Shown here piece after piece: positions 44,753 to 60,713 of a stretch of 64,000 nt of DNA; position 1 is the stretch's first letter, and each line of letters opens with the position of its first letter. The stretch covers positions 2,046,001-2,110,000 of the forward strand of contig NZ_AP023354.1 in NCBI RefSeq assembly GCF_018324685.1, in the 5' to 3' direction. The position numbers and the translations under genes are program-made. Origin of the DNA: Actinocatenispora sera (lineage in GTDB: Bacteria; Actinomycetota; Actinomycetes; Mycobacteriales; Micromonosporaceae). The notes below the pieces were generated by a model. It was not told where the DNA came from. It was given only the letters and a program-made list of their open reading frames with translations, and ran no database searches.

Positions 44753-45124
44753 GTGTCTGGCTATCTCGGCTCGTACCTGACGCTCGGGATCGTGCTGCTG
44801 CTCGCGGCCGTGCTGTTCGGTGCGGCGTTCGTGGTCAACCGGACGCTGCGGCCACACCGGCCGAACCCGGGCAAGCTCACCACGTACGAGTCGGGGGTCG
44901 ACCCGGTCGGCGGCGACTGGGCGCAGGCCGAGATCCGCTACTACGTCTACGCCTACCTCTACGTGCTGTTCGCGGTGGAGAGCGTCTTCCTGTTCCCCTG
45001 GGCGGTGGTGTTCGCCCGACCGGGGTTCGGCCGCAGCACGCTGATCGAGATGGTGGTGTTCGTCGCGGTCCTGCTGCTCGGCCTGCTGTACGCGGCGCGC
45101 AAGGGCGTGCTGCGGTGGACCTGA
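44753..45124 (+). CDS. nuoA2: NADH-quinone oxidoreductase subunit A, second copy
   Basis: A 123-residue three-helix protein of the NuoA family, but the ECG triplet of NuoA (YECGIEP in the first copy) is YESGVDP here, so the conserved loop cysteine is replaced by Ser. The acidic helix region is [14 protein letters not shown] 44753 is the start. It opens a second complex I gene set (A2 B2 C2 H2). The 121-base gap to nuoB2 holds a GC-rich repeat. Confidence 0.88.
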
Positions 45125-45129
45125 CCGGC

Positions 45130-45210
45130 GGCCCGGCCGGGCGCGATGCGGCACGGCGTGCCCGGGTGCGGCACGATGCGCCACGGCGTGCCCCGGCTGG
45201 GCGCGGCCCG
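45130..45210. repeat. Short GC-rich repeat between nuoA2 and nuoB2
   Basis: Related copies of a roughly 33-base unit, each containing GATGCG(G/C)CACGGCGTGCCC, lie in the 121-base gap. They may affect expression of nuoB2 or simply be repeat expansion. Confidence 0.5.
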
Positions 45211-45245
45211 GCCGGCTTGCCAGACTGGGGCCGAGGGGGTGCCCG

Positions 45246-45848
45246 ATGAACGGACCTGTCGCGTTGCCGGAACCGCGGCCGCGGGAGCGGGGTGGGCTGC
45301 CGGCGGTGCTCGGCGCGCCGATCCGCTTCGTGCTCAACTGGGGCCGGCGGTACTCGCTCTGGGTCTTCAACTTCGGCCTGGCCTGCTGCGCGATCGAGTT
45401 CATCGCCGCCTCGATGGGCCGGCACGACTTCATCCGGCTGGGCGTCATCCCGTTCGCACACGGGCCGCGGCAGGCCGATCTGATGGTCGTCTCGGGCACC
45501 GTCACCGACAAGATGGCGCCGGCGATCAAGCGGCTGTACGACCAGATGGCCGAGCCGAAGTACGTCATCTCGTTCGGCGCGTGCAGCAATTCCGGCGGGC
45601 CGTACTGGGACTCGTACTCGGTCACCAAGGGCGTCGACCAGATCATCCCGGTCGACGTGTACGTGCCGGGCTGCCCGCCGCGGCCGGAGGCGCTGCTGCA
45701 CGGCATCCTGCGGCTGCAGGACAAAATCGCCCGCGAGCAGGCCGGCCTCGGCGGGGTGCGCCGCGATGACCCGCTGGGTGCCGGTGCCCGCCGCGCCGGC
45801 GGTACCGACGCCGCGACGCTCACCGCCGGCCCGGTCCGCCCGAACTGA
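45246..45848 (+). CDS. nuoB2: NADH-quinone oxidoreductase subunit B, second copy
   Basis: A 200-residue NuoB paralogue. All four N2 cluster cysteines are present ([27 protein letters not shown]), so the subunit can hold a functional terminal cluster. Its conserved core is closer to NuoB than to hydrogenase small subunits. ATG 45246 follows a GGGGGTGCCC leader. NuoB2 would need a NuoD partner to form the quinone site, and none lies in this set. Confidence 0.9.
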
Positions 45849-45886
45849 CCCCTCGGGCACCGGCCCGCTCGCACTACGATCCGGGC

Positions 45887-46576
45887 ATGGGTGGTGAAGG
45901 GGCCGAGACCGGCGCGACATTGGCCGAACGGTTCGGCGCGGGCGCGGCCGGTACCGACTCCGGCGGCGGCGCGTGGGCCCGGCCCACCGTGGACGTGCCG
46001 GCCGACCGCTGGGTGGCCGCGCTGTCGACCGCCCGGGACGATCTCGGCTACGACTTCTTCGACTGGCTGTCCGCGGTCGACGAGGGTGCCGACGGGTTCC
46101 GGATCGTCGCGCACCTGTGGTCGGTCGCCGACCGGCGCGGCCTGCTGCTGCGCACCCTGGTACCGGCCGGTGCACCGGTGCTGGACAGCGTCGTCGCGGT
46201 GTACCCGGGTGCCGGTTGGCACGAGCGGGAGACGCACGAGATGTTCGGTGTCGAGTTCACCGGCAACCCCGACCTCGCGCCGCTGCTGCTGCCCGACGGG
46301 TTCGCGGGGCACCCGCTGCGCAAGGACTTCGTCCTGGCCGCGCGGGTGGTGAAGGCGTGGCCCGGCGCGAAGGAGCCGGGCGGCGAGCACGGCAAGCGCG
46401 CGCCGATGCGGCCCCCGGGCGTACCGGCACCGGACGAATGGCCGGCACCCCCGCCCGCCGATCCCGAGCCGCCGGCCGAGCCAACACCGCCGGCCGAGCC
46501 CGAGCCGCCCGCCGGCGGCGCGCACTCGGCGGAGCGGCCGGATGCGGCGTCGCCGCCGAGCGGGGAGGGCGAGTAG
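45887..46576 (+). CDS. nuoC2: NADH-quinone oxidoreductase subunit C, second copy
   Basis: A 229-residue NuoC paralogue. The signature GWHERETHEMFGVEFTGNP and the end GHPLRKDFVLAARV are intact. A Pro/Glu-rich tail of about 60 residues follows (PADPEPPAEPTPP). ATG 45887 follows a GC-rich leader. It is directly followed, with no gap, by nuoH2 (46577). The retained C subunit makes the absence of D more striking, because C and D dock together in complex I. Confidence 0.85.
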   Translation: MGGEGAETGATLAERFGAGAAGTDSGGGAWARPTVDVPADRWVAALSTARDDLGYDFFDWLSAVDEGADGFRIVAHLWSVADRRGLLLRTLVPAGAPVLDSVVAVYPGAGWHERETHEMFGVEFTGNPDLAPLLLPDGFAGHPLRKDFVLAARVVKAWPGAKEPGGEHGKRAPMRPPGVPAPDEWPAPPPADPEPPAEPTPPAEPEPPAGGAHSAERPDAASPPSGEGE

Positions 46577-47536
46577 ATGCCGCTGTGGGCAGAGCTGGTG
46601 CTGCGCCTCGCCGGCGTGGTCGTGGCGTTCCTGGTGTTGCCGCTGGTCGTCGGGCAGATCGAGCACAAGGTGATGGCGCACATGCAGGGCCGGCTCGGCC
46701 CGATGTACGCGGGCGGGTTCCACGGCTGGGCGCAGCTCGTCGCCGACGGCGTCAAGTTCGTGCAGAAGGAAGAGGTGGTACCGGCCGCGGCCGACCGGCC
46801 GGTGTTCCGGGCGGCGCCGATCGTCGCGCTGCTGCCGTACCTGGTGGTCGTGCTGGTGCTGCCGCTCGGGCCGGGGCTGGTCGGCCAGGCGCTCGACATC
46901 GGGCTGTTCCTGGTGCTCGCGGTGGTCGGGGTCGGCGTGGTCGCGGTGCTGATGGCGGCCTGGGCCAGCGCGAACAAGTACAGCCTGCTCGGCGGGCTGC
47001 GGGCGGCGGCCCAGCTGCTCGCGTACGAGCTGCCCTTCGTGCTGGCCGCGGCGAGCGTCGCGATGGCGGCGGGCACGCTGTCGCTGGGCGGGATCGTCGA
47101 GGCGTGGCGGCCGTGGTGGCTGGCCTGGCAGCTGCCGGCGATGCTGGTGTTTCTCACCGCCGGGATCGCGGAGCTGCGCCGGCCGCCGTTCGACATGCCG
47201 GTCGCCGACTCCGAGCTCGTCTTCGGCTACATGACCGAGTACACCGGGCTGCGGTTCGCGCTGTTCCTGCTCGCCGAGTACGTGGGGATCGTGGTGGTCG
47301 CGGCGCTGACCACGGTGCTGTTCCTGGGCGGCTGGCGCGGGCCGTTCGACGCCCAGCTGGGGTGGCTGTGGACGCTGGTCAAGGTGCTGATCGTGGCGTT
47401 CGTGATCATCTGGGTCCGGGTCACGTTCCCGCGGCTGCGGGCCGACCAGCTGCAGCGGTTCTGCTGGCTGGTGCTGGTGCCCGTCGCGCTGGCCCAGCTC
47501 GTCCTCACCGTCGGCATCCGCCTCGCCCTGAACTGA
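46577..47536 (+). CDS. nuoH2: NADH-quinone oxidoreductase subunit H, second copy, with altered acidic loop
   Basis: A 319-residue, eight-helix NuoH paralogue without the long tail of the first copy. The early loops are conserved (GRLGPMYAGGFHGWAQLVADGVKF), as is TEYTGLRFALFLLAEY. The acidic loop PEGESEL of NuoH1 is PVADSEL here: one glutamate is lost and another became aspartate. That loop lines the path from the quinone cavity to the proton channels. The gene ends the first block of the second set; a strong hairpin follows at 47607. Confidence 0.88.
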   Translation: MPLWAELVLRLAGVVVAFLVLPLVVGQIEHKVMAHMQGRLGPMYAGGFHGWAQLVADGVKFVQKEEVVPAAADRPVFRAAPIVALLPYLVVVLVLPLGPGLVGQALDIGLFLVLAVVGVGVVAVLMAAWASANKYSLLGGLRAAAQLLAYELPFVLAAASVAMAAGTLSLGGIVEAWRPWWLAWQLPAMLVFLTAGIAELRRPPFDMPVADSELVFGYMTEYTGLRFALFLLAEYVGIVVVAALTTVLFLGGWRGPFDAQLGWLWTLVKVLIVAFVIIWVRVTFPRLRADQLQRFCWLVLVPVALAQLVLTVGIRLALN

Positions 47537-47606
47537 CCGGCCGCCGCAACGTCGGCGTGGCCGGTCTTTCGGCCGGAGGACGTGGCCGGTCGTTCGGGCG
47601 GAGGAA

Positions 47607-47636
47607 AAGGGCCGCGACCGGTCGGTCGCGGCCCTT
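47607..47636 (+). terminator. Terminator after nuoA2-H2
   Basis: A perfect 13-bp stem (AAGGGCCGCGACC with GGTCGCGGCCCTT) and a GGTC tetraloop, about 70 bases after nuoH2. It separates the A2-H2 block from the downstream genes, so I2 and J2-N2 must have their own promoters. Confidence 0.85.
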
Positions 47637-47903
47637 CCTGCACCCCCCGCAGGACTCACCCCCGGTGGCACGGACCGGAGCGCAGAGACCGTAACACTCA
47701 GGGAAGGCGTAGCGGAACTTGACATCAGCAAATTGCACATAGCTGCACGGCCGTGCGCCGCCACCGAAAGTCGTGAGCTTATGTCCCGATCACGTCGTGA
47801 TCGCACCCCTCTGTCATCGGCCGTACGGCCGGTACCTGGCGGGTTTCGACCTGGCTAATCTGCGCAATCGCGCCGTTCACGAACTATCCAGGAGATCCCC
47901 ACC
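47637..47903 (+). promoter_or_regulatory. Upstream region of the paralogous membrane-protein pair
   Basis: No gene is seen in these 267 bases, which are less GC-rich than the surroundings. A TTGACA -35-like box is at 47719-47724, without a clear -10 at the right distance. A second candidate has TAATCT at 47856-47861 as -10, about 40 bases before the gene start. Both are tentative. Confidence 0.25.
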
Positions 47904-50066
47904 TTGACCGAGCCGGAGCGTCCGCAGCCGGCAGAGCCGTCTGCCCAGAACCCCACCGCCACCCCGCCCGCGTCCCCCACGGATGCGCCGCCACCGGTCT
48001 CGCCCGCGCCGCTCGGCCCGCCGCAGCCGCTCGGCGAACCGGTATCGTCCGCCCCCGGCGCGCCGCCGATGCCGGTCGGAGCGGCGGGACCGTACGGCCC
48101 GGGTGCACCGGAAACCGCCCTGGCAGCCGCGTCCGGGATGCCGCCGGTGCCGGAAGCGATGTCCGGGATGCCGCCCGTGCCGGGAGCGACGCCGCCGGTT
48201 GCCGGCGAGTCGGCCGGGACGGGGATGCCTTTCGGTCAGCCGGGTACGCCCGGAACGCCAACACCGGGTGACGCCGCGTCCGGCATCATGATCGGGCTGC
48301 CCGGCGACCCGCAGACCACGAACTGGCCGTACGGGTCGATGCCGGTACCGCCGGCGCCGCGCCGCCGCCGGCGCTGGCCCTGGGTCGCCGGCGCGGTCGC
48401 GCTGGTCCTGGTGCTCGGCGCGGTCGCCGTCCCGCTGTACCAGCGGCTCACCCGACCCACCCCCACCGAGCAGGTGCAGTCCGCGCTCGCCTCGCTGGAG
48501 CACGCGGCAGTGATCCGGTTGACCGGCGAGTCGGTGACCATGGACGGCATGCCTCAGCGCGTCACCCTGTCCCTGGCCGGGAAGCGCGCGTACGGGCAGG
48601 TCCGCGGCTCCGCCGGCAGCGCCGACGTGCTGGTCCGGCACGGAGTCACCTACCTGCGCGGCGACCGCGCCTGGTGGCGGGGCGCTGACGAGACGGCGGC
48701 GCTCTATCTGTCCGGGCACTGGACGGCGCAGACGTCCGGGCTGTCCCTCGACCCGACCAAGCTCACCCAGACCGGGCTGGCGAAGTACCTCGGCAAGGGG
48801 TTGCGCGCGAACGCCGACCCGGATGCGCATGCCAAACCGGCCGGCGCCGGATACCCGAGCGTCCTCGGCTCCACCGCGGTCACGCCGTACCGCCTGCCGA
48901 ACGGTTCGGTGGTCTTCGTGACCGCCAACGCCCCGTACCGGCTCGCCGGCATCGACCGCGCCCCCGGCGCGGCGGACGGCGGCTACCTCGACCTGACCGT
49001 CGCCACGGCCGACAAGGACAGCTTCGCCTCGGGGTTCGCGAAGCTCGCCGCCGGCGTGCACGGCGACCCGAAGACGCCGGCGCACTACGACTACCACGAC
49101 AAGCCGAAGCAGGGTACCTGCGATCCCTACTCCTGCACCGAGTCGGTACGGCTGGGGGCGGACGGCGGCGACACCAGCCGCAAGGGGCATGTCGTCGGGT
49201 TCTTCAGCTCCGACGAGGCCGGCAAACACATCGTCGGCACGTGCTCGGCGAAGCTGCCGAAGATGCAGCCGAACCACTTCGCCCGGGTCTCCTGCACCAC
49301 GAGATCGCAGTCGTGGCGGCGTTGGACGGCAAGCGGAGCCAGCACGCACTACTGGGTCTGGATCCTACCGCTCGACCCGGGGTACGTCGGGGACCATCCG
49401 AACCAGGTCATCAACGTCTTCACCGCGGGCGTCGACGCCACGGACATGGACCCCGACGACATCGTCCTGGAGTCGGAGGATGCGCTCGGGGTGACCGACC
49501 ATCTGATCGCCGCGGGCGCATGGAAGGGCCGGGCCGCGGTCGACGCGGTACACGCGATCTGCGACGCGGGCGCGTTGGGCGTGCTGGAGCCGCTGATCAT
49601 GGCGGGGCAGGTGCAACTCGACCAGGACAGCTTCGGCGACTGGTTCAACGACGAGCACCTGTCGGCGGCGGTCGCGGCGAAGGAACATGCGGCGGCCGGG
49701 TCGACGAAGCTGGCGCTCGGATCGTGGCAGGACCCGGACGACCGGACCGTCAAGGCCGACCTGATCGACATCTCCGCGAAGACCACCGTCACCACCGGCC
49801 GGGTCACCACGACCCGGCGGACCCGCGGCGACATCGAGCAGGCCGCCGACCGGGCCCGCAAGGGGACGATGCCCGCCGGGTTCGGACGACAGTTGCGGAT
49901 CGTGGCCGGCCCGGGCAGCGCCCTGTACTGGTCGTCGGCCTCCGGCGTGGCCGCCGCCCTGCGCGCGGCCGGCGTGACCCCGGCGATGCTGCACGGCATC
50001 CGCCACATCCGGGTCGTCACCGGATTCGGCACGGCCACTCTCACCCCGAACCAGCTGCGCAAGTAG
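47904..50066 (+). CDS. Large membrane-anchored exported protein, paralogue 1
   Basis: A 720-residue protein of unknown function. A Pro/Ala-rich cytosolic region of about 150 residues contains repeats of (M)PPVPEAMSG type. It is followed by an Arg-rich patch and one transmembrane helix (about 153-178), and the remainder should be extracellular. The first external segment (LASLEHAAVIRLTGESVTM, then GDRAWWRG) has the look of LppX/LprG-like lipid-binding beta folds. A later region has paired cysteines (TCDPYSCTES, GTCSAKLPK, SCTTRS). It shares this layout with the next gene, with a nine-base gap. It lies inside the second complex I set but has no recognisable respiratory domain. Confidence 0.6.
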   Translation: MTEPERPQPAEPSAQNPTATPPASPTDAPPPVSPAPLGPPQPLGEPVSSAPGAPPMPVGAAGPYGPGAPETALAAASGMPPVPEAMSGMPPVPGATPPVAGESAGTGMPFGQPGTPGTPTPGDAASGIMIGLPGDPQTTNWPYGSMPVPPAPRRRRRWPWVAGAVALVLVLGAVAVPLYQRLTRPTPTEQVQSALASLEHAAVIRLTGESVTMDGMPQRVTLSLAGKRAYGQVRGSAGSADVLVRHGVTYLRGDRAWWRGADETAALYLSGHWTAQTSGLSLDPTKLTQTGLAKYLGKGLRANADPDAHAKPAGAGYPSVLGSTAVTPYRLPNGSVVFVTANAPYRLAGIDRAPGAADGGYLDLTVATADKDSFASGFAKLAAGVHGDPKTPAHYDYHDKPKQGTCDPYSCTESVRLGADGGDTSRKGHVVGFFSSDEAGKHIVGTCSAKLPKMQPNHFARVSCTTRSQSWRRWTASGASTHYWVWILPLDPGYVGDHPNQVINVFTAGVDATDMDPDDIVLESEDALGVTDHLIAAGAWKGRAAVDAVHAICDAGALGVLEPLIMAGQVQLDQDSFGDWFNDEHLSAAVAAKEHAAAGSTKLALGSWQDPDDRTVKADLIDISAKTTVTTGRVTTTRRTRGDIEQAADRARKGTMPAGFGRQLRIVAGPGSALYWSSASGVAAALRAAGVTPAMLHGIRHIRVVTGFGTATLTPNQLRK

Positions 50067-50075
50067 GGATCGACC

Positions 50076-52010
50076 GTGTCGGAACGAGAATCGAACACCC
50101 CGCAGCCGGACGCCCCGGTGCCGTCCCCGGACACGGCCGCGGCGGCCCCACCGCCGGACGCTGCCGAGGTGGCGCCGTCCCCGGGCACCGCCGCGGCGGC
50201 GCCACCGCCGGAGGCTGCCGTGGCGGTGCCGTCGTGGGACGCTGCCGTGGTGCCGCCGCCGGTGGTTCCGGTCGTGGCGAAGCGGCGGCGGAGGTGGCCG
50301 CTGCTCGCCGTGATCGCGGGCGTCGTGGTGCTCGCCGTGGTCGGTACCGCGGTCGGGATTCCGTTGTACCGCAAGCTGACCGCGCCGCCGCCGACCGAGC
50401 GGGTGCTCGCCGCGGCCGCGGCGCTCGCCACCGCGCCGGCGATGAGCCTCCGCGGCAGCGTGTGGGGGGTCGAGGACGGCTCGTTCGAGACGTTCGACGC
50501 CCGGGTCGGTGCCGACACCACCACGGTGGGCACCATCTCGATCGGCGGCGGCAGGGCGGACTTCCTCGTCGGCCCGCGGCTGGTCCGGCTGCGCGGCGAT
50601 CGACGGTCCCTGCTGGCCATCAAGCCGGACGTGGCCGAGTACGGGGTCGGCACGTGGCTGGAGCTGGAGCCCGCGACGCTGAACGTGGCGTTCTCGGAGC
50701 TGACGCCGCGCAACGTGGCCAACCGGATGCGGGACGGGCTGCGGGCGAACGGCACCGGCAAGTACGCCGCGGTACCGGCCGACGGGTTCCCGACCCGGTT
50801 GGGCCGTACCGAGGTCACCCCGTACCGGCTGCCCAGCGGCCGCGTCGCCTTCGTCACCGCCGACGCCCCGTACCGGCTGGCCGGCTTCACCGGGAAGTTC
50901 GGCCTCAGCGTCGAGGGCGAGCTGACCGCCGAGGTCTCGGTGCTGACCAGCAAGCAGTTCGCGACCGACTACGCCGCGCAGAACCGTGCGGCCGGCGAGG
51001 CGCCGACGGAGCCGGCCCATTACATGCTCAAGCCGGACAGCGAGAAGCAGGGTTCGTGCACCGAACGGTCCTGCGCGGAGTCGGCCGTCGTCGTCGCCGA
51101 CGGTGGCGTCACCGGCGGGCCGGGCCACGTCATCGGCGTTTTCAGCAGCGACTCCGCCAACAAGCACGTCGTCGGTACCTGCACAGCGAAGCTGCCGAAG
51201 CTGAAGCCCAACGGATCCGCGCGGGTCTGGTGTACGACGACGTCGGCGAGCTGGCGCAAGTGGACCGCGCACGGCGGCAGCAAGCGGTACTGGTTCTGGA
51301 TGGTCCCGCTGTCGCCGGGCTGGCAGGGCGATGACCTGCGCAGCGAGCTGCACCTGTTTCGTATCGGGGCGCTCAACGAGGACGTGGTGACCGGGTACGA
51401 GCTGTTCACTGCGGGACCGGCGGAGTTCTTCGGTGTGATGGACTCGCTGGTCGGGCAGGGTTGGTCGGCTGCCGCTGCCTGGCAGGCGACCACGAATCTC
51501 GCCGACTCCGGGGCGCTCGGGCTCGCGGCGCCGATGCTGCGCGCCGGTACGTTGACGGTCGATCCGAAGGCCGGCCCGGGCGCTCTGGAGGCCGGGAGCC
51601 TGCCGTTCTACCGGGAGGCGCGGCGCCGGTACGACGCGCACGGCGGCAAGCTCGCCGTGGGCGGCTACACCGACTCGTCCGGCAGGCACCACACCGGCCA
51701 CCTGTACGACGTGACGCGGCGACGCGTGGTCACCGCGGTGCCGCTGACCGCCGACTCGATGCGCGGGCTGCGGAGCCAGTGGCCGGACGCGGTGGAACGG
51801 TGCCGCAACGCCAACGCACCCGAGGGGTTCGGCCGGGACCTCGTCCTGGTGGCCACGCCGCGCAGTCCGCTCTACTGGCTGGGCGGCGACGACGTGGCGC
51901 GCACGTTGCGTGCGGCGGGCGTCGCCGGCAAGGATCTCGCCGGCATCGCCACTCTCACCGTGGTGACCGGGACCGGCGCCATCGCGGTGCGCGCCGCCGA
52001 CCTGGGCTGA
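50076..52010 (+). CDS. Large membrane-anchored exported protein, paralogue 2
   Basis: A 644-residue paralogue of the preceding gene with a shorter Pro-rich cytosolic leader and a helix near 72-96 (LLAVIAGVVVLAVVGTAVG). The external part aligns along its length: GTISIGGGRADFLVG resembles LppX-like folds, then SCTERSCAES, GTCTAKLPK and WCTTTS give the same cysteine pattern as paralogue 1. The fifth cysteine differs: paralogue 1 has one in AICDAG, whereas this copy has one in ERCRNAN. GTG 50076 is nine bases after the first stop, so both are co-transcribed. A heteromeric pair is plausible; function unknown. Confidence 0.6.
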   Translation: MSERESNTPQPDAPVPSPDTAAAAPPPDAAEVAPSPGTAAAAPPPEAAVAVPSWDAAVVPPPVVPVVAKRRRRWPLLAVIAGVVVLAVVGTAVGIPLYRKLTAPPPTERVLAAAAALATAPAMSLRGSVWGVEDGSFETFDARVGADTTTVGTISIGGGRADFLVGPRLVRLRGDRRSLLAIKPDVAEYGVGTWLELEPATLNVAFSELTPRNVANRMRDGLRANGTGKYAAVPADGFPTRLGRTEVTPYRLPSGRVAFVTADAPYRLAGFTGKFGLSVEGELTAEVSVLTSKQFATDYAAQNRAAGEAPTEPAHYMLKPDSEKQGSCTERSCAESAVVVADGGVTGGPGHVIGVFSSDSANKHVVGTCTAKLPKLKPNGSARVWCTTTSASWRKWTAHGGSKRYWFWMVPLSPGWQGDDLRSELHLFRIGALNEDVVTGYELFTAGPAEFFGVMDSLVGQGWSAAAAWQATTNLADSGALGLAAPMLRAGTLTVDPKAGPGALEAGSLPFYREARRRYDAHGGKLAVGGYTDSSGRHHTGHLYDVTRRRVVTAVPLTADSMRGLRSQWPDAVERCRNANAPEGFGRDLVLVATPRSPLYWLGGDDVARTLRAAGVAGKDLAGIATLTVVTGTGAIAVRAADLG

Positions 52011-52018
52011 CCGGCTCC

Positions 52019-52056: not shown

Positions 52057-53043
52057 TCAGGAGTGGCCGGAGATGGGCTTGGGGCGGTACGGCTCGGCCA
52101 GCGCGGCGAGCTCGTCGGCCGACAGCGTCAGTTCGGTTCCGGCGATCGCGTCGTCGAGGTGGTGCGGCTTGGTGGCGCCGACGATCGGCGCGGTCACCGC
52201 CGGCTGGTGCAGCAGCCAGGCGAGCGCCACCTGCGCCGCCGGTACGCCGTGCGCGTCGGCGACGTCCGCGACCCGGTCGGCGACGGCGAAGTCGGTCTCG
52301 TCGTAGTCGTAGAACCGCAGGTTGCCCGGGTCGGTGCGGGCCCGGACGGTGTGCTGGCCGTCCCGGCCGCGGTTGCCGGCGAGGAAGCCGCGGGCCAGCG
52401 GCGACCACGGCAGGATGCCGACGCCCTGGTCGGCGCAGAACGGGATCATCTCCCGCTCCTCCTCGCGGTAGATCAGGTTGTAGTGGTTCTGCATGGACAC
52501 GAACCGGGTCCAGCCGTGCGCGTCCGCCGTGTACTGCGCCTTCGCGAACTGCCAGGCCCACATCGACGACGCCCCGATGTACCGGGCCTTGCCGGCGCGC
52601 ACGACGTCGTGCAGCGCCGCCATCGTCTCCTCGATCGGGGTCTCCGGGTCGAACCGGTGGATCTGGTACAGATCGACGTAGTCGGTGCCCAGCCGGCGCA
52701 GTGAGGCGTCGATCGAGTCCATGACGTGCTTGCGGGACAGCCCCCGGTCGTACGGCCCGTCGCCCATCGGGTTGCACACCTTGGTGGCGAGCACGTAGTC
52801 CTCGCGGTGCTGGAAGAAGCGGCGCAGCAGGCGGCCGGTGATCTCCTCGCTGACCCCGACCGAGTAGACGTCGGCGGTGTCGTAGAAGGTGATGCCGGCC
52901 TCGGCGGCGCGGCGCACGAACGGCGCGGCGTCGGCCTCCGGCAGCACCCACTCGCGCCAGTTGACCGGATCGCCGTAGCTCATCATCCCCAGGCACAGCC
53001 GGGACACCTTCAACCCGCTGCCGCCCAGTCGTACGTACTCCAC
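52057..53043 (-). CDS. Aldo/keto reductase
   Basis: A 328-residue NADPH-dependent (beta/alpha)8-barrel oxidoreductase. The catalytic tetrad is visible: Asp and Tyr in [11 protein letters not shown], Lys in VLATKVCNP, His in [21 protein letters not shown] and the C-terminal [13 protein letters not shown] match the family. GTG 53043 follows a GGAAGGA ribosome-binding site; a longer start at 53067 is possible. It is read against the nuo2 genes and divergent from nuoI2. Its substrate is unknown, and there is no sign of a role in respiration. Confidence 0.87.
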
Positions 53044-53135
53044 GGTGCGTCCTTCCCCCACGTGCACTGGCCACCACCAGCCTAGGGGTGTCCGGGAGCC
53101 GGCCGGCGGGCCGGTGCGGTGGCAGGATGGGTGGC

Positions 53136-53669
53136 ATGGCGGGATCGGTACCGGGCAAGGGGCTCGCGAAGGGGCTGGCCACCACGCTCAAGACGATGGT
53201 GCGCCCGGCCGGGACCCAGCAGTACCCGGACGTGCAGCCGGAGCTGCCGCCCCGCTCGCGCGGCGTGATCGCGCTGCTGGCGGAGAACTGCACGTCGTGC
53301 ATGCTGTGCGCGCGGGAGTGCCCCGACTGGTGCATCTACATCGACTCGCACAAGGAGACGGTGCAGGTGGAGGGCGCGGCGCGGGCCCGGCAGAAGAACG
53401 TGCTGGACCGGTTCGCGATCGACTTCTCGCTCTGCATGTACTGCGGGATCTGCGTCGAGGTGTGCCCGTTCGACGCGCTCTACTGGTCGCCCGAGTTCGA
53501 GTACGCCGAGTACGACATCCGCGACATGATGCACGAGTCGGACCGGCTCGGCGAGTGGATGACCACGGTACCGGCGCCGCCCGCGCACGATCCGAACGGC
53601 GAGCCGGCCAAGGAGGTCACCGCCGCCGAGCGCGGTGGCCGCGGCCGGGTCTCCCGCCCGCCCCGCTGA
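53136..53669 (+). CDS. nuoI2: NADH-quinone oxidoreductase subunit I, second copy
   Basis: A 177-residue NuoI paralogue with both cluster motifs intact ([15 protein letters not shown] and [15 protein letters not shown]). So both N6 clusters are possible. ATG 53136 is chosen; ATG 53127 is also in frame. It stands alone between an aldo/keto reductase and an esterase, 5.6 kb away from nuoH2. The C-terminus is Gly/Arg-rich. In the normal gene order I directly follows H, so an insertion or rearrangement separated them. Confidence 0.9.
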
Positions 53670-53680
53670 GTCGTCGCCGC

Positions 53681-53770
53681 GCCGGCGCGGGGAACCGCGG
53701 TCGCTTCGGGCCGCGCGGCGCGGGGAACCTCGGTCGCTTCGGGCCGCGCGGCGCGAACCGCGGTCACTTC
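53681..53770. repeat. 33-bp tandem repeat running into the hydrolase stop
   Basis: Copies begin at 53681, 53715 and about 53748 (unit about GCGGCGCGGGGAACCGCGGTC then GCTTCGGGCCGC; the last is partial). The array lies between convergent nuoI2 and the hydrolase, and its last unit includes the hydrolase stop codon (53764-53766). Confidence 0.8.
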
Positions 53771-54435
53771 AGCAGGAGCGCGGTGAGCTCGTCGGGGGCG
53801 GTGAGCATCGCGTCGTGGCCGGTGCCGATCTCGTCGACCGGCCAGCCGAACTCGTGCGCCCAGCTGCCGAACGGCATCCCGTTGTCGGGCACGCAGACGA
53901 TCGCCCGGCACGGCAGCTCCTCGACCCGGCCGGTCAGCACCGTCGGCTCGGCGAACGTCCGGCGCGGCTGCGGTACCAGCTGCGGGGTCAGCCAGGCGAC
54001 CTGCTCCGGGTCGTCCACGCCGACCATCGGTGGTGGCGGTACCGCGATCAGCCCGTCCGTGGTGTTCCGGTCGACCCAGCGGCGGAACGGCTCGGGCGCC
54101 AGGTCGTCCATGCTGGCGCCGTCCGGGCCGGCCCACGCGTCGACGAGGATCAGCCGCGCGATCCGCTCCGGTACCCGGTCCGCCGCCTGCCGCACGACGA
54201 GCCCCGCGTAGCTGTGCCCGACCAGTACCACCTCGGTCAGGTCCTCGGTGTTGAGCAGCCTGACCACATCGTCGGCGTGCGTACCGAGGCCGACGTCGGG
54301 CCGCGGCTCGCCGCCGTCCAGGCCGGTCAGGGTCGGGGTGAGGACCCGGTGGCCGGCGGCGCGCAGCCGGTCGGCGACGTGCGTCCAGCACCAGCCGCCG
54401 TGCCAGGCTCCCGCCACGAGTACGAACGTGGACAT
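53764..54435 (-). CDS. Small alpha/beta hydrolase (EstC-like esterase)
   Basis: A 223-residue hydrolase. The oxyanion motif GAWHGGWCW is at the start, the nucleophile elbow GHSYAG near residue 71, and the His in IGTGHDAML near the end; the acid is probably in the CVPDNGMPF region. This combination is typical of the salicylate-binding/EstC-type esterases. ATG 54435 starts the conserved sequence. The gene converges with nuoI2 and is divergent from nuoJ2. Substrate unknown. Confidence 0.85.
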   Translation of the reverse strand: MSTFVLVAGAWHGGWCWTHVADRLRAAGHRVLTPTLTGLDGGEPRPDVGLGTHADDVVRLLNTEDLTEVVLVGHSYAGLVVRQAADRVPERIARLILVDAWAGPDGASMDDLAPEPFRRWVDRNTTDGLIAVPPPPMVGVDDPEQVAWLTPQLVPQPRRTFAEPTVLTGRVEELPCRAIVCVPDNGMPFGSWAHEFGWPVDEIGTGHDAMLTAPDELTALLLK

Positions 54436-54556
54436 CGACCCTCCCAGAGTTCGACAGTCATCGAATCATACTCGCGGGGCGTGGACATGGGTCGCCTGGT
54501 TGTCGCGCCACGCGGGGCGACACGGCAGGATGGATCACCATGGGCGGGTGGGAACC

Positions 54557-55057
54557 GTGACGGTGGCGGACGTACTGCTGGTGGCGCTCGGCGTGGTGAC
54601 GCTGGGCGCCGCCCTGCTGGTGGTCACCAGCCGGCACCTGGTGCGCGCCGGGCTGTGGCTGGTCGTCGCGCTCGGCGGGGTCGCCGGCTGTTACCTGGTG
54701 CTCACCGCCGAACTCGTCGCCTGGGTCCAGGTGCTGCTCTACGTCGGCGCCGTGGTGGTGCTGCTGCTGTTCGCGGTGATGCTGACCCGGGCGCCGATCG
54801 GACCCAGCCGGCAGCTCGACCGACCCCGGCTGCCCGCCGCGCTGGTCGGCGGCGGCGCCGGCGTCGGGCTCGCCGCGCTGCTGGTCGACGCGTACCGGTG
54901 GAGTCACGTCGAGCAGCCGCCGCCCGGCACGGCGGAGCGGATCGGTGCCGCGGTGTTCCGGCAGTGGGTGCTGCCGTTCGAGGTGGTGTCGGTGCTGCTG
55001 CTGGCCGCGCTGATCGGCGCGATCGTGCTGTCCACCCGAGCCGGGCGGGGCCGCTGA
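54557..55057 (+). CDS. nuoJ2: NADH-quinone oxidoreductase subunit J, second copy
   Basis: A 166-residue, five-helix NuoJ paralogue lacking the charged tail of the first copy. The helix-3 block WVQVLLYVGAVVVLLLFAVML matches NuoJ. GTG 54557 has GGGTGGG before it; an earlier ATG near 54530 is possible. It begins the J2-K2-L2-M2-N2 block. nuoK2 shares one base with its stop. Confidence 0.85.
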   Translation: MTVADVLLVALGVVTLGAALLVVTSRHLVRAGLWLVVALGGVAGCYLVLTAELVAWVQVLLYVGAVVVLLLFAVMLTRAPIGPSRQLDRPRLPAALVGGGAGVGLAALLVDAYRWSHVEQPPPGTAERIGAAVFRQWVLPFEVVSVLLLAALIGAIVLSTRAGRGR

Positions 55058-55479
55058 TGCATCCGGTGATCCCGTACCTGATCGCGGCGTTGCTGTTCGG
55101 CGTCGGCTGCTACGGCGTGCTGGTGCGACGCAACGCGGTGCTGCTGCTGATGTCGCTGGAGCTGATGCTCAACGCGGTCAACCTGATCCTGGTCACCGCG
55201 GACACCAGCATCGTCGGCGTCCCCCGGTCCGGCCAGGTGTTCGCGCTGTTCGTGATCGTGCTGGCCACCGCCGAGGTGGGCGTCGGCCTGGCCGTGGTGC
55301 TGCGGTTCTTCCGGCTGCGCGGCAGCGTCGACACCGACCTGCTCGACACCCGCCGCACCGGTGACGGTGCCGGCGGCGCGGTGCGCGCCGAGCACACCGC
55401 GGGCGGTACCGCCGCCGACCCGGAGACCGCGGCCGTGACCGTCGCGGACACCGACACCGGTACCGGGGAGGTGCGGTGA
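55057..55479 (+). CDS. nuoK2: NADH-quinone oxidoreductase subunit K, second copy
   Basis: A 140-residue NuoK paralogue. The two buried glutamates are retained (SLELMLNAVNL and TAEVGVGLAVV). The C-terminal 45 residues are a Gly/Thr/Asp-rich tail (GTAADPETAAVTVADTDTG) beyond the normal 99-residue length. ATG 55057 overlaps the nuoJ2 stop by one base, and its stop overlaps nuoL2. Confidence 0.88.
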   Translation: MHPVIPYLIAALLFGVGCYGVLVRRNAVLLLMSLELMLNAVNLILVTADTSIVGVPRSGQVFALFVIVLATAEVGVGLAVVLRFFRLRGSVDTDLLDTRRTGDGAGGAVRAEHTAGGTAADPETAAVTVADTDTGTGEVR

Positions 55480-57404
55480 TGCTGACCACGGCGCTGGCGA
55501 TCCTGCTGCCCGCGGTGCCGGGTGCGGCCGGCCTGGCCGGCCTGCTGGTACGGCCGGGCGCGCGCCGGGCCGCGGCGGCGCTGGGCATCACGGCGACCGC
55601 GGTGGCGCTGGCCGCCGCGACGGTGCTGCTCGCCACGACCCGCAGGGTGGCTGCCGGTACCACGCTGGCCGACCTGGTCGGGGTCACGGTGCGGGTCGGC
55701 GTCTCGGTCGACCCGGTGGCCAGCTCGGTGGCGGTCGCGGTCGGCGTGGTGGCGCTGCTGGTGCAGGTCTACTCGGTGGCCTACCTGCGCGGCGACGACC
55801 GGTACGGGCCGTACGCGGCGCAGGTGAGCCTGTTCACCGCGGCGATGCTCGACGTGGTCGTCGCCGGCGACCTGGTGCAGCTGCTGGTCGGCTGGGAGGT
55901 CATGGGCATCTGCTCGTACCTGCTGATCGGGCACGACCGCAGCCTGGCCACCGCGCCGGCCGCCGCGGTCAAGGCGTTCCTGGTCACCCGGGTCGGCGAC
56001 GTCGGGTTCTGGATCGGGGTGATCCTGCTCGGCACCGGCGCCGGCAGCTTCCGGATCGACGACGTGATCACCGCCGCGGCCACCGGCGAGCTGTCGCACG
56101 CCCGGGTCACCGCCGCGGTACTGCTGCTGCTCGCCGGGGTGGCCGGCAAGAGCGCGCAGTTCCCGCTGCACAGCTGGCTGCCGGACGCGATGGCCGGCCC
56201 GACCCCGATCTCGGCGCTGATCCATGCCGCGACGATGGTCGCCGCCGGCATCTACGTGGTGACCCGGCTGTACCCGCTGTTCGTCACCTCGCGGCCGGCG
56301 CTGGTGGTGCTGGGCCTGATGGCGGCGGTGACGATGCTGCTCGGCGCGCTCGCCGCGACCGCCGCCGACGACATCAAGCGGGTGCTCGCCTGGTCGACCG
56401 TCAGCCAGCTCGCGTACATGGCGGGCGCGCTCGCCGTCGGCTCGGATCGGGCCGCGATCTTCCACCTGCTCACCCACGCCGCGTTCAAGGCGCTGCTGTT
56501 CCTCGCCGCCGGCTCGGTCATCCACGCGGTCGGCAGCAACCTGATGAGCCGGATGGGCGGGCTGCGCCGCGGCATGCCGGTCACGTTCGTCACGATGACG
56601 ATCGGGCTGGCGGCGCTGGCCGGGGTGCCGCCGTTCGCCGGCTTCTGGAGCAAGGACTCGATCCTGTCCGCCGCCCAGCAGGCGACGAACGGCCTGGGCG
56701 CCGCACCGGCGCTGGTCGGCTGGCTGGTCCTGGTGTGCGGGCTGGCCACCGTCGCGATCACCGCCTGGTACGTGACGAGGTTGTGGCTGCGGACGTTCTT
56801 CGGCGCCCGGCGCGGCCCGGCCGGGCACGAACCCGCCCGGTCGATGTGGATTCCGTTGGTACTGCTGTCGATCCCGGCGACGCTGCTGGGGCTGATCGAG
56901 CTGGTTCCCAGCCGCACCCCGCGGGCCGACTTCGGCTGGTTCGCCTACACGCCGAGGAAGTACGCCGAGTACCTGCCGTCCGGGGTACCGGGCAGCCACC
57001 TGCTGCCGATCGGCCGGCAGGACCTCGACCCGGTCACCATGACCATCGGACTGGTCCTGGTCGCGCTCGGGGTGGTCGCGGCGATCCTGGCCTGGCGCCG
57101 GGACACCGCCGCCGACCCGGCCCGGGTACTCGGCCGCGCCGCGCCGCTGCTGCGGGCCGGGTTCCGGTTCGACGACGCGCAGCGCGCGCTGGTGGTCCGG
57201 CCGGTGCGGGCGCTGGCCACCACGGTGTGGCTGGGCGACGCCCGGGTGGTGGACGGCGCCGTCCGCGGGGTGGGGTCCGGCGCGCTCCGGCTCGGCCGCC
57301 GGCTGGCCCGGCTGCACACCGGCCTGCCCCGCTCGCTTGCCGCGGTACTGGCCGGCGCGGTGCTGCTCGCCCTCGTCGCCGTCCTCGTCGGAGGTGTCCG
57401 GTGA
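55479..57404 (+). CDS. nuoL2: NADH-quinone oxidoreductase subunit L, second copy
   Basis: A 641-residue NuoL paralogue. The helix-5 glutamate (GWEVMGICSYLL) and helix-7 lysine (AAVKAFLVTRVGD) are present, as is GPTPISALIHAATMVAAGIY. A long C-terminal stretch after about residue 460 corresponds to the lateral helix, so the subunit should be able to reach across M2 and N2. ATG 55479 has GGGGAGG upstream; a GTG at 55476 is possible. nuoM2 overlaps by four bases. Confidence 0.9.
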   Translation: MLTTALAILLPAVPGAAGLAGLLVRPGARRAAAALGITATAVALAAATVLLATTRRVAAGTTLADLVGVTVRVGVSVDPVASSVAVAVGVVALLVQVYSVAYLRGDDRYGPYAAQVSLFTAAMLDVVVAGDLVQLLVGWEVMGICSYLLIGHDRSLATAPAAAVKAFLVTRVGDVGFWIGVILLGTGAGSFRIDDVITAAATGELSHARVTAAVLLLLAGVAGKSAQFPLHSWLPDAMAGPTPISALIHAATMVAAGIYVVTRLYPLFVTSRPALVVLGLMAAVTMLLGALAATAADDIKRVLAWSTVSQLAYMAGALAVGSDRAAIFHLLTHAAFKALLFLAAGSVIHAVGSNLMSRMGGLRRGMPVTFVTMTIGLAALAGVPPFAGFWSKDSILSAAQQATNGLGAAPALVGWLVLVCGLATVAITAWYVTRLWLRTFFGARRGPAGHEPARSMWIPLVLLSIPATLLGLIELVPSRTPRADFGWFAYTPRKYAEYLPSGVPGSHLLPIGRQDLDPVTMTIGLVLVALGVVAAILAWRRDTAADPARVLGRAAPLLRAGFRFDDAQRALVVRPVRALATTVWLGDARVVDGAVRGVGSGALRLGRRLARLHTGLPRSLAAVLAGAVLLALVAVLVGGVR

Positions 57405-58894
57405 CGAGCGCGTTGTTGGTGGTGGTGCTCGCGGTGCCGGCGTTCGGCGCGGTGCTCGCCGCGCTGCTGCCGGACCGCGCCGGCCGGCTGACCGGTACCG
57501 CCGCGGCGGCCGTGGCGTTCCTCGCCACGCTGCCGCTGGCCTGGCACTCCACCCCGGCCGGCCACCACGCGATCGCGCCGTGGCACCAGCTCGACGTCGC
57601 GTGGGCGCCGGCCCTGGACATCCGGTTCCACCTCGGGGTGGACGGCATCTCCTGGCCGCTGGTGCTGCTGACCACGCTGCTGACGCTGCTGTGCTGCGGC
57701 TACTCGCTCTGGCGTACGCCCGGCGCCGTCCCCGGCCGGTACCTCGTGGCGCTGCTGCTGGTCATCGAGGTCGGCATCGTCGGCGTGTTCGAGTCGCTGG
57801 ACCTGGTGCTGTTCTTCGTGTTCTTCGAGGTCGTCCTGCTCCCCATGTACGCGGTGATCGCCGGCTGGGGCGGTCCCGGGCGCCGGGCCGCGGCGACGAA
57901 GTTCGTGCTGTACACGCTGTTCGGCTCGGTGCTGCTGCTGGTCGGGGTGTTCGTGATCGTGGCGAAGACCGGTACCGCCGACCTGGTCACGCTGTCCGAC
58001 CGGGGCGGCGCCGGGCTGTCCGGCGGTACCCAGCTGCTCGCGTTCGTGCTGCTGGCGGTGGCGTTCGCGGTGAAGAGCCCGCTGTGGCCGCTGCACACCT
58101 GGCTGCCCGACGCGCACACCGAGGCGCCTACGGTCGGTTCGGTGATCCTCGCCGGCGTGCTGCTCAAGATGGGCACGTACGGGCTGCTGCGGGTCGCGGT
58201 CGGGGTGCTGCCGGACGGCGCGCGGGCCGCGTCCGGGCTGCTCGGCGTGCTGGCCACCGCGGCGATCCTGATCGGTGCGCTGGTCTGCCTGCGGCAGACC
58301 GAGCTCAAGCGGCTCATCGCCTACTCGTCGGTCGGGCACATGGGTTTCGTGGTGCTCGGCATCGCGACCCTCACCGGTACCGGGTTCCAGGCGGCGCTGA
58401 TCGGCAACATCGCGCACGGGTTGCTGACCGGGCTGCTGTTCTTCCTGGTCGGCGCGATCAAGGACCGCACCGGTACCGGTGAGCTGGCCCGGCTCGGCGG
58501 CCTGCGCGAGGTGGCGCCGGCGCTCGCCGGGCTGCTCGGCTTCGCGGCGATCGGCTCGCTCGGACTGCCCGGCCTCGCCGGCTTCTGGGGCGAGTTCTTC
58601 ACCGTCTACGCGGCGATCCGGCACGGCGGTCCACTGTGGATAGTGCTGGGTGTGTTCGCCGCGTTCGGTGGCGCCCTCGCCGCGGCGTACTTCCTGCGGC
58701 TGCTGCGCCGCGTCGCGCACGGCCCGGCGGCCCCGGCGATCGCCGCGCTGCGGCCCCGCGCGCTGGCCCGGCCGGAACTCGCCGCCTGGTCCCCGCTGGT
58801 ACTGCTGGCCCTCGCGGTCGGCGTGGCCCCGGCGCTGGTGCTCGCCCTCTCCGCCCCGCCGGTTCGCGGCCTGATCGAGGTGATCGGTCGATGA
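57401..58894 (+). CDS. nuoM2: NADH-quinone oxidoreductase subunit M, second copy
   Basis: A 497-residue NuoM paralogue. The helix-5 glutamate (FFEVVLLPMYAVIAGW), the helix-7 lysine (AATKFVLYTLFGS) and PLHTWLPDAHTEAPT are intact, so the channel residues look functional. GTG 57401 overlaps the nuoL2 stop (GTGA). A 103-base gap with no hairpin precedes nuoN2. Confidence 0.9.
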   Translation: MTSALLVVVLAVPAFGAVLAALLPDRAGRLTGTAAAAVAFLATLPLAWHSTPAGHHAIAPWHQLDVAWAPALDIRFHLGVDGISWPLVLLTTLLTLLCCGYSLWRTPGAVPGRYLVALLLVIEVGIVGVFESLDLVLFFVFFEVVLLPMYAVIAGWGGPGRRAAATKFVLYTLFGSVLLLVGVFVIVAKTGTADLVTLSDRGGAGLSGGTQLLAFVLLAVAFAVKSPLWPLHTWLPDAHTEAPTVGSVILAGVLLKMGTYGLLRVAVGVLPDGARAASGLLGVLATAAILIGALVCLRQTELKRLIAYSSVGHMGFVVLGIATLTGTGFQAALIGNIAHGLLTGLLFFLVGAIKDRTGTGELARLGGLREVAPALAGLLGFAAIGSLGLPGLAGFWGEFFTVYAAIRHGGPLWIVLGVFAAFGGALAAAYFLRLLRRVAHGPAAPAIAALRPRALARPELAAWSPLVLLALAVGVAPALVLALSAPPVRGLIEVIGR

Positions 58895-58997
58895 GTGCGA
58901 GGGTGAACCGAGTCGCGCGGCTGGTGGCCGACCCTCGGCGGGCCGGTCGGCGTCGTGCCTCGTGCGTGGCGAGCGTTCCGCCGAAGGAGCAACGCCG

Positions 58998-60713
58998 ATG
59001 AGCCTGGTGCAGTCGATCGATCAGGTGGCGCTGGCACCCGCGTACCTGGCCGCGCTGACCGCGGTGGCGGTGCTGATCACCGACCTGGTCGCGCCCGGCC
59101 GGCGGGTGCCGGCGCTGGTCGCCGCCGCGCTCGGCACCACCGCGACCGGCGTCGTCGCCGTACTGGTCGGGCTCGGTCCGGTGCGCGCCACGTTCTGCAC
59201 CGCCGGCGGCACCCTGCCCGGCGGGGTGCCCGTCGGCCGGTCCTGCTCGTACGTGGCGGACCACGTCGGCGCCCTGGTCGCCGTGCTGTTCTGCGCGGTC
59301 ACCCTGGTCGTGCTGGCGCTGTCCACACCGATGCTCGCGGCCCGGGTCGCGCCGAGCGGTGAGTACCTGTTCCTGCTGGCCGCGTCGCTCACCGGCGGCG
59401 TCGTGCTCGGCTACGCGCGCGACCTGATCACGCTGATCATCGCGGTCGAGACGCTCACCCTCCCGCTGTACGTGCTGATCGGTCTACGCCACCGGGCGTC
59501 CCGTGCCGCCGGCCGCGACGCGCCGACCGGAACCGCGCCGGCCGGAACCGCGCCGGCCGGAACCGCGCCGACCGGAACCGCGCCGGCCGGCACGGCACGC
59601 GACAGCGGGCCGGCCGCTGCGGGTAGCGCCTCGACCGGCCCGGCAGGCGACGGCGGGCCACCGGCGGGCGGGGTCGGCGCCGTTGCGGACGAGCCGCGGG
59701 GGCCGGCGGAGGCCGCGTCGGGTGCGTTGACGTTCTTCGTGATCTCGGTGGTGTCGACCACCGTCACGCTGCTCGGCGCCGCGCTGCTCTACGCGCTGAC
59801 CGGCGCGGTGCACCTGGACCGGATCGCCGCGGCGCTGGCGCACCGGGACGAGCTGCACGGCGTACCGCTGACCTCGGCGGCGGTGCTGCTGGTGCTGGTG
59901 GGGCTCGCGTTCAAGCTGGCCGCGGTGCCGTTCCACGGCTGGGCACCGGTGAGCTACGACGGCGCGCCGCTGCCGGTCACCGCGTACCTGTCGACCGCCT
60001 CCAAGCTCGGCGGCGTCGTCGCCCTGCTGTACGTGACGGTGTTCGCGCTCGGCCCGTGGTTGTCGGTGGTCGGCCCGCTGCTCGCGGTGCTGGCGGTGGC
60101 GAGCATGACGGTGGGCAACCTGGCCGCACTGCGGCAGCGGCGGATGGTGCGGCTGCTCGCGTTCTCGTCGGTGGCGCAGGCCGGCTACCTGCTGGCGCCG
60201 CTCGGCGCGTTCGCCGCGGCGGCCGGCCGGGCCGGCGCGGCCCGGCACACGCTGACCGCGGCCACCCTCGGGTACACGATCTTCTACCTGCTGCTGGAGC
60301 TGGGCGCGTTCGGTGCGCTGATCGCGCTGCGCGGCGCGCGATCGGGCGGCGAGATCGACGAGTACCGGGGTGCCGGGCGGGCGCGGCCGCTGACCGCGGC
60401 GGCGCTGGCGTTCGCGCTGATCGGGCTCGCCGGGCTGCCCCCGAGCCTGGCCGGCCTGTTCGCCAAGATCACCGTGGTCCGGGCGGCGCTGACCGGCGGA
60501 AGCGCCTGGCTGGCCGTGCTGATCGCGTTGAACGCGGTGCTCGGCCTGGTCTACTACCTGCGCGTGGTGGTCGTCCTGTACCGCACCGGCGAGTACCGGC
60601 CGGTCCCGGTCCGGCCGCTGCTGGCCGGCGTGCTCGCCGTCGTCACCGCGGCCGCCGTGGTCGCCGGGTTCGCGCCGCAGCTGGTCCTGGACGCCGCCGC
60701 GCTGCTGCCCTGA
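58998..60713 (+). CDS. nuoN2: NADH-quinone oxidoreductase subunit N, second copy, without the helix-7 lysine
   Basis: A 571-residue NuoN paralogue. The helix-5 glutamate (AVETLTLPLYVLIGL), helix-8 lysine (GLAFKLAAVPFHGWAP) and a later lysine (GLFAKITVVRAAL) are present. After helix 5-6 an insertion of about 75 residues carries a 5-residue GTAPA-type repeat. The following helix reads EAASGALTFFVISVVS, where NuoN1 has EAAVKYFLLGAFAS; the conserved helix-7 lysine is replaced by Thr in this alignment. ATG 58998 follows AAGGAG. Last gene of the second set; no convincing terminator was found before htpX. Confidence 0.87.
   Translation: MSLVQSIDQVALAPAYLAALTAVAVLITDLVAPGRRVPALVAAALGTTATGVVAVLVGLGPVRATFCTAGGTLPGGVPVGRSCSYVADHVGALVAVLFCAVTLVVLALSTPMLAARVAPSGEYLFLLAASLTGGVVLGYARDLITLIIAVETLTLPLYVLIGLRHRASRAAGRDAPTGTAPAGTAPAGTAPTGTAPAGTARDSGPAAAGSASTGPAGDGGPPAGGVGAVADEPRGPAEAASGALTFFVISVVSTTVTLLGAALLYALTGAVHLDRIAAALAHRDELHGVPLTSAAVLLVLVGLAFKLAAVPFHGWAPVSYDGAPLPVTAYLSTASKLGGVVALLYVTVFALGPWLSVVGPLLAVLAVASMTVGNLAALRQRRMVRLLAFSSVAQAGYLLAPLGAFAAAAGRAGAARHTLTAATLGYTIFYLLLELGAFGALIALRGARSGGEIDEYRGAGRARPLTAAALAFALIGLAGLPPSLAGLFAKITVVRAALTGGSAWLAVLIALNAVLGLVYYLRVVVVLYRTGEYRPVPVRPLLAGVLAVVTAAAVVAGFAPQLVLDAAALLP
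59521..59595 (+). repeat. In-frame 15-bp tandem repeat x5 in nuoN2
   Basis: Five consecutive 15-base units (CGCCGGCCGGAAC and variants, starting 59521) encode the Pro-Ala/Thr-Gly-Thr-Ala repeat of the NuoN2 insertion. The unit length, a multiple of three, keeps the frame. NuoN1 has no such segment. Confidence 0.9.

Follow-up and report, generated by a model that had tools for sequence, protein, structure and literature searches.

A second set of complex I genes (nuo2) occupies positions 44753-60713 of a 64,000-nucleotide stretch of the Actinocatenispora sera genome, which is 7.04 Mb long and assembled in one contig (the whole stretch, G000:C1:2046001-2110000, is referred to as the window), and raises the question of where its NuoD subunit comes from and what feeds it with electrons. 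In an initial annotation, made from the window alone, the set was described as nuoA2, B2, C2 and H2, then nuoI2, then nuoJ2 to nuoN2, with no nuoD, nuoE, nuoF or nuoG at 44.7-60.7 kb, and the options offered were that NuoD is supplied by the first nuo operon of the window, that it comes from elsewhere, or that this is a new type of complex with a different electron donor and quinone subunit. We propose, with a probability of about 0.72, that nuo2 specifies a complex I of 11 subunits that lacks the NADH-oxidizing module (N-module), has its NuoD2 provided by a relocated gene, and probably accepts electrons, most simply from ferredoxin, reduces quinone and pumps protons.

The genome-wide search that the initial annotation had called for found a dedicated nuoD2. 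A search of the complete genome in all six frames identified two NuoD-family genes, nuoD1 of the first operon (7823-9175 of the window, forward strand; PF00346, E = 6.4e-110), which has the quinone-binding Tyr, and nuoD2 at G000:C1:613550-614716 (forward strand), and no match was found inside 44.7-60.7 kb. The latter gene encodes 388 amino acids without internal stops, begins with an ATG preceded by a GGGAGG site and exceeds the cut-off of an NCBIfam NuoD model; its product is shorter than NuoD1, with which it shares 36-38% identity. It lies 1.48 Mb from the nuo2 cluster, whereas nuoD1 is 36 kb from nuoA2. Of the options mentioned above, a NuoD from elsewhere is thus the one that stands, while the stronger version, a nuo2 set with no NuoD at all, is refuted by the same gene. 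A single-sequence structure model of NuoD2 had a mean predicted local distance difference test (pLDDT) score of 34 and was not used. The gene is arranged head-to-head with a proline dehydrogenase gene (L004:4390-5361 and 5551-6717; G000:C1 near 613 kb), and a gene for a glycine-betaine-type ATP-binding cassette (ABC) substrate-binding protein is found nearby. Proline dehydrogenase was rejected as a partner of nuoD2, as this neighborhood is confined to the same genus: of 30 loci compared with 1.5-kb flanks, three (L007-L009) have it.

Among relatives, nuoD2 is inherited together with the nuo2 genes. In a class set of 216 genomes, requested at 97% completeness and including the A. sera genome itself (96.8%), NuoD2 (at least 252 bits, reaching the C-terminus), NuoC2 (at least 100 bits) and NuoH2 (at least 388 bits) were identified in 79, 64 and 49 genomes, respectively. 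All 49 nuoH2-containing and all 64 nuoC2-containing genomes also have nuoD2, 136 genomes have none of the three genes and one (G457) has a weak NuoC2 match alone; because the genomes share ancestry and their sampling is uneven, Fisher values for the counts overstate the evidence. In a second set of 61 genomes (A. sera and 60 relatives), NuoD2 and NuoC2 are each present in 45, both in 43 and neither in 14, with NuoD2 alone in two (G049 and G059) and NuoC2 alone in two (G005 and G041); NuoH2 is present in 39 genomes of this set, and 38 of these have NuoD2. The co-inherited genes are not linked: among the 34 listed genomes that carry both on a single contig, nuoD2 and nuo2 are never closer than 87 kb, and nuoD2 was found near none of the 80 named nuoC2 loci within flanks of up to 10 kb.

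A comparison of gene order, also suggested by the initial annotation, revealed that nuoD2 is unlinked across this class and operonic in 11 loci that belong to other classes of the phylum. All 11 loci contain an A2-B2-C2-D2-H2-I2-J2-K2-L2-M2-N operon in which nuoD2 is located between nuoC2 and nuoH2; one of them ends after nuoM2, and the last gene usually has its highest score with the NuoN1 query. Genes of nuo1 stand directly upstream of the operonic nuo2 in seven of the 11 stretches (L087 and L089-L094) and in none of the other four, and none of the 11 loci has a match to NuoE, NuoF or NuoG. The separation of NuoD1 from NuoD2 rests on a tree of 70 sequences, consisting of 49 NuoD2 (38 unlinked and 11 operonic, no named Streptomyces NuoD2 among them) and 21 NuoD1, in which all NuoD2 form one clade (support 100/99) and the 38 unlinked ones form another (100/100) that is nested within the operonic ones. 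Because the unlinked sequences are one clade nested among operonic sequences, a single relocation, in which nuoD2 would have left the operon once near the base of this class, is the simplest account.

The three-part layout of the cluster was confirmed with Pfam and NCBIfam profiles, and all of its genes are on the forward strand. The first part consists of nuoA2 (44753-45124; Oxidored_q4, E = 1.3e-31), nuoB2 (45246-45848; Oxidored_q6, E = 5.6e-28), nuoC2 (45887-46576; Complex1_30kDa, E = 2.2e-35) and nuoH2 (46577-47536; NADHdh, E = 2.7e-101). The second is nuoI2 alone (53127-53669, starting at ATG 53127 or 53136; TIGR01971 NuoI, E = 1.1e-28, under the cut-off of that model), and the third consists of nuoJ2 (54530-55057 from ATG 54530, with GTG 54563 also possible; Oxidored_q3, E = 4e-37), nuoK2 (55057-55479; Oxidored_q2, E = 1.4e-23 in that frame), nuoL2 (55476-57404; TIGR01974, over its cut-off), nuoM2 (57401-58894; TIGR01972, over its cut-off) and nuoN2 (58962-60713, starting at GTG 58962 or ATG 58998; TIGR01770, E = 1.9e-79). 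All seven membrane subunits (A, H, J, K, L, M and N) are encoded in the window, and the quinone module (Q-module) is complete in the genome, with B2, C2 and I2 in the window and D2 near 613 kb. When NuoD1, NuoD2, NuoE1, NuoF1 and NuoG1 of the same genome were compared with 22.5-62.5 kb by tblastn, only noise was obtained (best E = 0.47), so the local absence of nuoD, nuoE, nuoF and nuoG was correctly observed. NuoH2 is 81-83% identical to its counterparts in loci of Salinispora, Micromonospora, Virgisporangium and two unclassified metagenome-assembled genomes, and 68-74% identical to those of Streptomyces, Kitasatospora and Actinomadura, a pattern that points to the Micromonosporaceae.

Several features of the sequences bear on whether the set works. 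The cysteine motifs of NuoB2 (CC, C, C), which we take to be the ligands of cluster N2, and the two 4Fe-4S motifs of NuoI2, presumably also iron-sulfur (Fe-S) ligands, are intact, and the N-terminal docking helix of NuoI2 is present. The Lys and Glu positions of the antiporter-like subunits align between NuoL1 and NuoL2, NuoM1 and NuoM2, and NuoN1 and NuoN2, and are presumably the functionally important positions of L2, M2 and N2. All ten nuo2 genes of the window are open, and the set is conserved across many genera. In comparison with two congeners, omega ranges from 0.04 to 0.43 for the usable nuo2 pairs, after leaving out N2/G003 (a wrong paralogous match with an omega of 1.17) and J2/G003, and from 0.11 to 0.12 for nuoD2.

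The site at which NuoD2 would meet quinone is altered. Residues 24-300 of NuoD2 align without gaps to the three best 49-kDa chains in the PDB (8ba0_D, 8b9z_D and 8esw_S2), with Trp89 opposite the Tyr of RLDYVS. By the offset in the 2fug_4 row, from which the Thermus numbering was taken, Trp89 corresponds to Tyr87 of Thermus thermophilus Nqo4, which binds the quinone head together with His38 (PMC11677225; this and the other PMC sources are cited from the portions of their texts available to us). Trp is found in all 49 NuoD2 of the tree, 38 unlinked and 11 operonic, and Tyr in all 21 assessable NuoD1; a further 25 divergent NuoD2 all have the motif RHDW or RHEW, which brings Trp to 74 of 74. The quinone His (H40) is kept in 49 of 49 NuoD2 of the first set and in 21 of the 25 divergent ones, so that the site has its His and carries Trp in place of Tyr. 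The suspicion of an altered quinone subunit is thereby partly upheld, though not in the form foreseen, by the invariant Trp of NuoD2.

In the proposed complex, NuoA2, NuoH2 and NuoJ2 to NuoN2 would make up the membrane arm, and NuoB2, NuoC2, NuoD2 and NuoI2 the connecting arm, with NuoD2 made from the gene that would have left the operon in a single event early in the history of this class. A one-electron carrier of low potential, in the simplest case reduced ferredoxin, would feed the two 4Fe-4S clusters of NuoI2, electrons would pass to cluster N2 in NuoB2 and then to quinone (probably menaquinone) at a cavity of B2, D2 and H2, and NuoH2 and NuoL2 to NuoN2 would pump protons. A donor other than NADH is plausible. 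The candidate donor system is a 2-oxoacid:ferredoxin oxidoreductase, KorAB, encoded on the reverse strand 4.6 kb upstream of nuo2 (37265-40184) and adjoining nuo2 in many relatives; its alpha subunit gene, korA, is at 38322-40184 (TIGR03710, E = 3.7e-201, over the cut-off) and its beta subunit gene, korB, at 37265-38329 (NF008820, E = 1e-75, under the curated cut-off of the model). KorAB of a mycobacterium is an aerotolerant 2-oxoglutarate oxidoreductase (PMC2773412).

Several observations weigh against the proposed complex. The first is G005, the one NuoH2-containing genome of the 61 in which NuoC2 and NuoH2 are found and NuoD2 is not, in an assembly of 810 pieces. The second is Trp89 itself: with the Tyr that forms a hydrogen bond to the quinone replaced by Trp in every NuoD2 examined, ordinary quinone reduction is not assured. 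The loop between transmembrane segments 5 and 6 of NuoH2 (46577-47536) reads PVADSE instead of the PEGESE of NuoH1, with two acidic positions changed or shortened. The last concerns the donor. KorAB is found within about 12-16 kb of nuoH1 in seven genomes without nuo2 (G015, G037, G038 and G050-G053), and four nuo2 carriers (G035, G045, G046 and G058) have no match to KorA; KorAB is thereby weakened as proof of the donor, and ferredoxin is a fair guess.

The alternative that survives best, although we consider it unlikely, is a quinone-independent complex, in which the Trp-bearing site of NuoD2 and NuoB2 reduces another acceptor. The membrane-bound sulfane reductase (Mbs) of Pyrococcus is a precedent for an enzyme of this kind that works without quinone. 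The Trp of all 74 NuoD2 examined speaks for it, as does the fact that relatives without nuoH2 keep the D2/B2 site while membrane-facing parts erode. The full-size complexes, however, keep the quinone-His loop (HPSTHG), the NuoB loop and the NuoI2 helix, H40 is still found in most of the divergent NuoD2, which are from nuoH2-less genomes, and we know of no candidate acceptor, which also counts against it.

The relatives without nuoH2 bear on this alternative most directly. NuoD2 without NuoH2 is found in 30 of the 216 class genomes, 15 of which have a clear and four a weak NuoC2, and the genome-wide absence concerns NuoH2 only. Examination of nuoC2 loci from 14 of the 30 revealed B2-C2-I2 in 13, with the remaining locus (L221) leaving its contig after nuoC2, and no A2, H2 or J2-N2 match of their own in the stretches around the 14 loci; ten are beside KorAB, three behind nuoN1 and one beside neither. 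Six more loci of the 61-genome set are alike, except that L078 ends after nuoC2, and one H2-less genome (G060) has a partial NuoH-like match on another contig. The H2-less B2-C2-I2 sets are L215-L228, L075-L079, L085, L149 and L150, with L228 and the named locus L149 sharing a contig. The N-terminal helix that precedes the first cluster motif of NuoI2 is missing in 18 of 18 readable H2-less NuoI2 (that of L222, read out of frame in the main comparison, lacks it on a separate reading), and its motif is matched in 78 of 81 full-type NuoI2, the other three having it by eye. Similarly, 19 of 21 H2-less NuoB2 have lost the NuoB loop that ends in PRQAD, which is matched in 84 of 90 full-type NuoB2, with four more by eye and two not assessable; both motifs were chosen after looking, and the full-type counts include seven of the 80 named loci whose contigs stop short of nuoH2. 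In the H2-less NuoD2, erosion affects positions such as 28-52, 143-153 and 213-220, whereas R66, E69, K70, R86, W89, R169, H171 and others are retained. The Fe-S motifs and the Trp are kept and the membrane-facing parts are eroded, and as far as the sequences tell, the loss of the latter is concerted.

On a NuoD2 tree, the absence of nuoH2 requires at least three changes, which may be one gain and two losses and are read as three losses with the root on the operonic copies; 18 of 32 full-type relatives were thinned out of this tree, and its only NuoD1 are two long-branch sequences that fall inside the operonic NuoD2 with weak support (86/62). Apparently, nuoH2 was lost three times while nuoD2 and the B2-C2-I2 genes remained. 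In G118 (L253:4556-8076), nuoA2, nuoB2, nuoC2, an internally shortened nuoH2, nuoI2 and htpX are found with no nuoJ2-N2 beside them, apparently a loss of the membrane arm in progress. Omega in the nuoH2-less lineages is 0.16-0.60, and since the NG86 method probably underestimates the synonymous rate (dS) at such a G+C content, these values are compatible with relaxed selection. The product of the H2-less genes may be a soluble enzyme with another acceptor, against which weigh the quinone His, mostly retained in their NuoD2, and the possible relaxation of selection. More broadly, we tentatively suggest, at somewhat less than even odds, that NuoD2 represents a separate complex I branch whose D/B site, recognizable by the invariant Trp, has a job that needs no membrane, that B2C2D2I2 may form a soluble Fe-S enzyme with a non-quinone acceptor in several actinomycete lineages after loss of the membrane arm, and that the complex of the window could be the membrane-bound, ion-pumping parent.

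A supply of electrons from NADH to the complex, through NuoE, NuoF and NuoG of the first operon or through a second NuoF-like protein, is improbable. No nuoE, nuoF or nuoG is found at 22.5-62.5 kb, and a genome-wide search, which covered NuoF alone, returned one unlinked second NuoF-family gene (G000:C1:2913807-2914271; L086:5154-6407), on which this alternative draws. That gene is unlikely to belong to an N-module, as its neighbor is a ferric-reductase-like membrane gene and the 12-kb stretch around it has no nuo2 homologue; nor do the 11 ancestral-type operons described above show a match to any of the three proteins. Still less probable is that NuoL2 and NuoM2 can replace the antiporter subunits of the nuo1 complex as alternative versions, as suggested for Streptomyces, for which antisense RNA on nuoL2 and nuoM2 is reported (PMC3765725), because such a swap leaves A2, B2, C2, D2, H2 and I2, as well as the complete 11-gene operons elsewhere, unexplained.

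The proximity of nuoD1 to nuoA2 and the distance of nuoD2 from nuo2 throughout the class would fit a NuoD1 that serves both complexes, leaving nuoD2 another job. We regard this as very improbable, given that nuoD2 tracks nuoC2 and nuoH2, that in other classes the complete nuo2 operon has it as its D gene, and that the 14 of 61 genomes with nuoD1 and without nuo2 lack nuoD2 too. Least probable of all is a silent and decaying set, which the initial annotation had raised and for which the unrelated genes that split nuo2 in this genus and the nuoH2 remnant of G118 could be cited; it is rejected on the ten open genes, the omega values of 0.04-0.43 and the conservation across many genera, and data from Streptomyces are said to point to expression of nuo2 from a single operon (PMC3765725).

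The cluster is broken at two places. Between nuoH2 and nuoI2 are two tandem open reading frames on the forward strand (47904-50066 and 50076-52010, together 47904-52010), without a Pfam family at E 0.001, and an aldo/keto reductase gene on the reverse strand (52057-53067; Aldo_ket_red, E = 6.6e-80); between nuoI2 and nuoJ2 is an alpha/beta hydrolase gene on the reverse strand (53764-54435; Abhydrolase_6, E = 3e-21). The tandem frames look like a related pair, each with a Pro-rich N-terminus, one likely transmembrane segment and a remainder that is probably exported; among the loci compared, their homologues are found only in congeners, at the same place in G002 and G003. Downstream of nuoN2, a gene for an HtpX-like M48 peptidase (60826-61758, forward strand; NF002839, over its cut-off) adjoins nuo2 in many relatives, in some even after the membrane subunits were lost. 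Upstream, a frame at 39093-41939 includes an oxidoreductase molybdopterin-binding domain (residues 674-826, about 41.1-41.6 kb).

A nuo2 set with a separate nuoD2 is already published for Streptomyces, where nuoA2, B2, D2, H2 and most or all of I2 to N2, including SCO4606 (nuoL2) and SCO4607 (nuoM2), are contiguous except for nuoD2 (PMC3765725; PMC8388888). The A. sera set is of the same kind, with no N-module genes in the cluster and with an unlinked nuoD2 of one clade that co-occurs with nuo2, and its apparent lack of NuoD is accounted for by a nuoD2 encoded elsewhere, as in Streptomyces. It differs in that the cluster is interrupted twice in this genus, and in that nuoC2 is present here and unlisted in the portions available of those accounts. 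The nuoABCDHIJKLMN operon of Desulfitobacterium encodes the same 11 subunits without an N-module, with ferredoxin among the candidate donors, but it is one operon with nuoD in place (PMC11238625), unlike the A. sera genes, which stand in three parts with nuoD2 far away. The ordinary Nuo of the first operon in the window has counterparts to the nuo2 proteins, from which nuo2 differs by the lack of NuoE, NuoF and NuoG genes in its stretch, by Trp for Tyr and by a shorter NuoD2. Group 4 NiFe hydrogenases, Mbh and Mbs share a related B/C/D/I module: in phmmer searches NuoD2 matches complex I chains best (E = 5.6e-84), followed by 6u8y_L (E = 1.5e-50), which we take to be an Mbs chain, and the Mbh chain 6cfw_L (E = 1.3e-40), and the N-terminal nickel-binding CxxC of the hydrogenase large subunit is not found in the NuoD2 sequence.

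What is added here is the Trp-marked clade, the single relocation that its tree suggests and the repeated B2C2D2I2 sets without nuoH2, none of which was found in the open-licence PMC literature searched; for KorAB-nuo linkage and membrane-free Nuo modules in actinomycetes, the same search gave only the statements on Streptomyces nuo2 and nuoD2. Complex I subunits are normally encoded together in a single operon, and the Tyr at the quinone site of NuoD is regarded as a mechanistic fixture; in this clade, a core subunit is unlinked yet co-inherited, and every member sampled manages without that Tyr. Ordinary laboratory actinomycetes could be used to test which donor serves complexes without an N-module. 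If the chemistry differs as much as the residues suggest, the clade would be a natural experiment on the function of the quinone site and on the ways in which complex I modules can be reused.

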